Shown here: positions 2,318 to 9,477 of the stretch, in pieces | Position numbering within the stretch: the first letter of the stretch is position 1 | Layout of the letters: every line of letters begins with the position of its first letter | Assembly (NCBI GenBank): GCA_947034885.2 | Contig: OX344753.2 | Span: 20,460,001-20,524,000, forward strand | DNA length: 64,000 bases | Source: Thuidium tamariscinum | Lineage: Eukaryota > Streptophyta > Bryopsida > Hypnales > Thuidiaceae | Reading direction: 5' to 3' | The notes under the pieces: generated by a model | Database searches by the model: none | What the model saw: only the letters and a program-made list of their open reading frames with translations | What the model was told of the DNA's origin: nothing | Position numbers and translations under genes: made by a program

Positions 2318-9477
<7,160 letters not shown>

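Follow-up and report, generated by a model that had tools for sequence, protein, structure and literature searches.

A predicted 8-nt microexon completes ATPase motif I of an ALC1-type Snf2 remodeller gene in Thuidium tamariscinum

An ALC1-type gene on the minus strand

The window analyzed here is a 64,000-nt stretch of the Thuidium tamariscinum genome, and its minus strand harbors a gene with a reading frame that is open over 18 exons, with GT/AG introns and a single stop, at the end (Table 1). The splice sites were chosen by eye from the sequence and then checked by script, and an in-frame stop lies upstream of the exon 1 ATG. The first-pass annotation had put the complete model at 2667 nt, an exact multiple of three; the divisibility holds, but the length is 2661 nt.

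Table 1 Predicted features of the ALC1-type gene, with positions in the window.
Feature	Position	Strand	Description
Whole coding region, ALC1/CHD1L-type remodeller	1818..9477	(-)	18 exons, 2661 nt with stop, 886 aa
Exon 1	9285..9477	(-)	193 nt; ATG to ...VIL plus G; end phase 1
Intron 1	8967..9284	(-)	318 nt; GTAAAC...TTTGCAG
Exon 2, 8-nt microexon GGGATGAG	8959..8966	(-)	completes Gly and codes Asp-Glu of Snf2 motif I
Intron 2	8553..8958	(-)	406 nt; GTGCGG...CTGCAG
Exon 3	8474..8552	(-)	79 nt; starts MGLGKT

The predicted protein matches the Pfam families SNF2-rel_dom at residues 44–351 (E 2.1e-70) and Helicase_C at residues 377–494 (E 1.3e-19); a two-lobed Snf2 ATPase is present, and its motif I is complete only when the microexon is included. 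Its best solved relatives are the ALC1 structures 7epu, 7otq and 7enn, with E values from 5.3e-163 to 2.1e-162 and alignments that reach residue 886. The alignment to human ALC1/CHD1L (7epu, E 5.3e-163) covers residues 14–886 of the query and is unbroken at the microexon. The next family, ISW1, aligns both more weakly and over a shorter region (E 1.8e-115, residues 37–636). Since the alignment to ALC1 is better and longer than that to ISW1 and takes in both ATPase lobes, the gene is ALC1-like, and it is predicted to encode an intact ALC1/CHD1L-type Snf2 remodeller. The C-terminal part aligns to the C-terminal part of ALC1, which we take to be the ALC1 macro domain; no macro-domain family gave a Pfam match at E 0.001.

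The gene may be of the plant CHR10 type (ASG3). The excerpted table of a tomato survey places CHR10 in the EP400 row and has nothing beside ALC1 (PMC6458923), and the excerpted text of a soybean survey describes an ALC1 subfamily, its gene unnamed, as 1:1 between Arabidopsis and soybean (PMC10138738).

Elsewhere in the window, a long open frame at 48951–50678 (-) has by eye the look of a protein kinase, and another at 43817–44794 (-) appears glutathione-transferase-like. Two further open frames, at 33965–34777 (+) and 35326–35754 (+), look by eye one glutamine-rich and one Myb/trihelix-like, and are perhaps a single transcription factor gene.

A phase-1 microexon in motif I

Exon 1 ends GTC ATT CTG G, followed by GTAAAC, while exon 3 follows CTGCAG and begins ATGGGTTTAGGG, read as the codons ATG GGT TTA GGG AAG ACG. 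Between them, on the minus strand from 8966 to 8959, lies the exon GGGATGAG in the context TTTGCAG-GGGATGAG-GTGCGG, a 21-mer that has one match in the 363-Mb genome (19 contigs). The microexon is in phase 1, completes the Gly codon and adds Asp-Glu, and the joining of exons 1, 2 and 3 gives Gly-Asp-Glu-Met-Gly-Leu-Gly-Lys-Thr. The likeness of the plant protein to human ALC1/CHD1L extends from residue 14 to the end, and ILGDEMGLGKT is common to both, with 11 of 11 residues identical. Simple extension of either neighboring exon does not provide the residues: exon 1 continues as GKQ, and the bases preceding exon 3 are CCTGCAG.

Thus, the Gly-Asp-Glu of ATPase motif I very probably resides on this phase-1 8-nt microexon, which would normally be included. 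The first-pass annotation had proposed the 8-nt exon, its phase and the motif that it completes, and all three are borne out by the reading frame, the alignment to ALC1, the lack of any other listed single-exon candidate ending in Asp-Glu and the shuffles described below.

Splicing of the microexon and its consequences

From the sequence, skipping of the microexon is predicted to end the reading frame within exon 3, after 85 codons, in agreement with the earlier statement that skipping shifts the frame; retention of intron 1 or intron 2 would lead to a stop within 100 codons. An RNA with many introns downstream of its stop is expected to undergo decay. Because many introns lie downstream of these early stops, the mis-spliced RNAs would be expected to be degraded.

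Splice sites were scored by a leave-one-out comparison with the gene's own sites, a set based on 17 introns only. The microexon acceptor, at 8.81, is the fourth best of 17 (gene range −2.47 to 12.89), the donor, at 3.66, is the third weakest of 17 (gene range 0.9 to 7.24), and both scores fall inside the gene's own range. Neither flanking intron contains a T-rich 20-nt or G-rich 10-nt stretch above the 80% threshold used in a plant microexon survey (PMC8831610), the maxima being 12/20 T and 6/10 G in intron 1 and 13/20 T and 6/10 G in intron 2. In the excerpted text of that survey, such stretches near plant microexons are an enrichment and not a requirement (PMC8831610).

The microexon is probably included as a rule, and a route for its splicing may be proposed. 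The factors for both splice sites hardly fit together on an 8-nt exon, and because of this crowding the two flanking introns, of 318 and 406 nt, would be removed one after the other. By analogy with a published plant model, the downstream intron would often be the first out, and the upstream intron would be detained and removed after transcription. The Arabidopsis data excerpted from that work show at least one detained flanking intron at 50 of 69 constitutive microexons, more often the upstream one, and it was these mostly upstream detained introns that led its authors to a model of consecutive, partly post-transcriptional removal (PMC8831610).

The first-pass annotation had also suggested that inclusion of the microexon could act as a switch. 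A regulated switch of this kind would produce active ATPase on inclusion and a truncated, degraded RNA on skipping, in a ratio that depends on tissue or stress. The predicted stop after 85 codons and a microexon donor below the gene average are compatible with such control, as are the purines at seven of the eight microexon bases: according to the excerpted text of one study, GRP20 binds poly-purine motifs in micro exons and is needed for such exons to be retained in floral homeotic transcripts of Arabidopsis (PMC10808074). However, inclusion exceeds 0.5 for most plant coding microexons in the excerpted survey text, where the authors leave open the significance of minor isoforms (PMC8831610), and a second candidate ending in Asp-Glu is absent from those listed in the gap between exons 1 and 3. 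The suggestion of a switch is unsupported and, in our judgment, very improbable. It is similarly unlikely that the cell adjusts its level of active ALC1-type remodeller through microexon splicing and the breakdown of RNAs that skip the exon or retain an intron. If it did, RNAs with a detained upstream intron might wait in the nucleus until needed.

Chance matches and other exons in the gap

The bare 8-mer is common, with two occurrences in the window and a mean of 0.96 in shuffles. Its double occurrence would suit a reading in which the motif is missing and the 8-mer has arisen by chance, exon 1 being joined straight to exon 3 or the gene being a decaying pseudogene. A direct join of exons 1 and 3 breaks the frame, however, and the 18 open exons and the alignment of residues 14–886 to human ALC1 speak against this reading. 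We defined a strict site as 8 nt between AG and GT, made up of two bases that complete a Gly or Ala codon and the codons for Asp-Glu. A site of this kind occurs once in the window, both strands counted; when the 732-nt gap between exons 1 and 3 was dinucleotide-shuffled 20000 times, one turned up in 44 cases. Under a looser definition, which admits any open exon no longer than 200 nt that restores the frame and has Asp-Glu at its end, matches appeared in 954 of 20000 shuffles (~5%); it is the exact 8-nt fit, without extra residues, that chance makes unlikely. A chance 8-mer match was rejected on these grounds, and a missing motif is extremely unlikely.

Candidates in the 732-nt gap were listed as single exons, from 2 nt upward to a limit of 400 nt and at least 40 nt from either gap end, which gave 59 that are open and restore the frame, one of them ending in Asp-Glu. 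There is next to no chance that a longer exon, or an exon pair, in the gap supplies the motif in place of the microexon: the other 58 single exons on the list also restore the frame, but none ends in Asp-Glu, so each would place other residues in motif I.

Relation to published plant microexons

Plant microexons have been surveyed in 990 RNA-seq sets from 10 plant species, in which 2398 microexons of 1–15 nt were found, roughly half with a length divisible by 3 (PMC8831610). Coding microexons of this size in land plants form 45 conserved clusters (Yu et al. 2022, PMC8831610; MEPDB, PMC12409088). The exon described here is, like these, an internal coding exon of no more than 15 nt in a conserved protein motif with two flanking introns, both GT-AG, and by sequence has the form of a plant coding microexon.

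In the excerpted survey text, Cluster 16 codes part of the SNF2 family N-terminal domain (SNF2_N) and has intron-retaining and intron-losing structures in almost all land plants (PMC8831610). The sizes printed there for other clusters are 1 nt for Clusters 1 and 2, 4 nt for Cluster 5, 5 nt for Cluster 7, 8 nt (phase 1) for Cluster 18 and 12 nt for Cluster 28 (PMC8831610). If the numbering follows size, as these values suggest, Cluster 16 would be 8 nt or shorter. The SNF2 domain is common to both and the suggested size agrees, so the 8-nt exon is probably a member of Cluster 16 in that survey. Paralogues whose motif I is unbroken would yield structures of the intron-loss kind reported for Cluster 16. 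Among the literature matches listed, none was seen to name a microexon in CHR10 or in motif I, and in the excerpted texts an SNF2_N microexon cluster is named in PMC8831610 only; a Cornus "microexon" among them was an aligner option and no exon.

Two other cases in the excerpted survey text are instructive. The plant invertase microexon, which codes D-P-N of the beta-fructosidase motif, is likewise a tiny phase-1 exon in a core enzyme motif, but it belongs to another gene and is 9 nt long, such that skipping keeps the frame (PMC8831610). The microexons of APC11 and VPS55, present in flowering and other land plants, share with the exon described here a size far under the usual one and a critical role in the frame, but are 1 nt long and lie in other genes (PMC8831610). 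The first-pass annotation had placed 8 nt near the lower limit for spliceosomal recognition, which is contradicted by the confirmation of 1-nt exons by RNA-seq and RT-PCR (PMC8831610).

Exons so short are often missed by annotation, the annotated share of discovered microexons ranging from 17% to 78% by species in the excerpted survey text (PMC8831610). At the ALC1-type gene, missing the 8 nt would cut the 886-aa protein to 85 residues or leave a model without part of motif I. The value of the finding thus lies in the correction of a gene model, which fits a published microexon class; the mechanism is not new.

Motif I at other Snf2 places in the genome

A search with the PF00176 profile gave 69 exon-level matches, which were merged by position into 34 places. 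We resolved 33 of these at the level of the motif rather than of full gene models, leaving out L035. No intron interrupts motif I, or the motif that corresponds to it, in 25 of the 34 places. Motif I appears to be cut by one intron in seven (L015, L032, L034, L037, L041, L042 and L043, with upstream exons untraced in L015 and L037), and among the 33 resolved Snf2-domain places it is cut by two introns in the ALC1-type gene only. An intron at motif I is therefore not rare among these Snf2 genes, while a separate microexon is seen in the ALC1-type gene only. The single motif I introns of the seven places sit at several different positions. We considered whether L037 shares intron 1 of the ALC1-type gene and rejected this, the L037 intron being one codon later.

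Where motif I is unbroken (25 places), the position ahead of Asp-Glu is occupied by Ala 19 times, by Cys three times, by Gly twice and by Ser once; 20 of the 25 places have the Asp and 16 have the Glu. The first-pass description of Gly-Asp-Glu as invariant was thus too strong, given a first-position Gly in only 2 of these 25 places.

Three of the other places deserve mention in their own right. L004 and L005, at ~20.276 Mb and ~20.347 Mb on contig C4, are Snf2 loci with the motif ILADEMGLGKT that lie ~71 kb apart in opposite orientation and do not differ at any of the 3576 bases compared; either the inverted duplication is very recent or the assembly contains the locus twice. At ~26.752 Mb on the same contig, the Snf2-domain frame L008 has ILADDVGLGRT as its motif I, with Arg for the usual Lys, and may encode a protein that resembles a remodeller but lacks normal ATPase activity.
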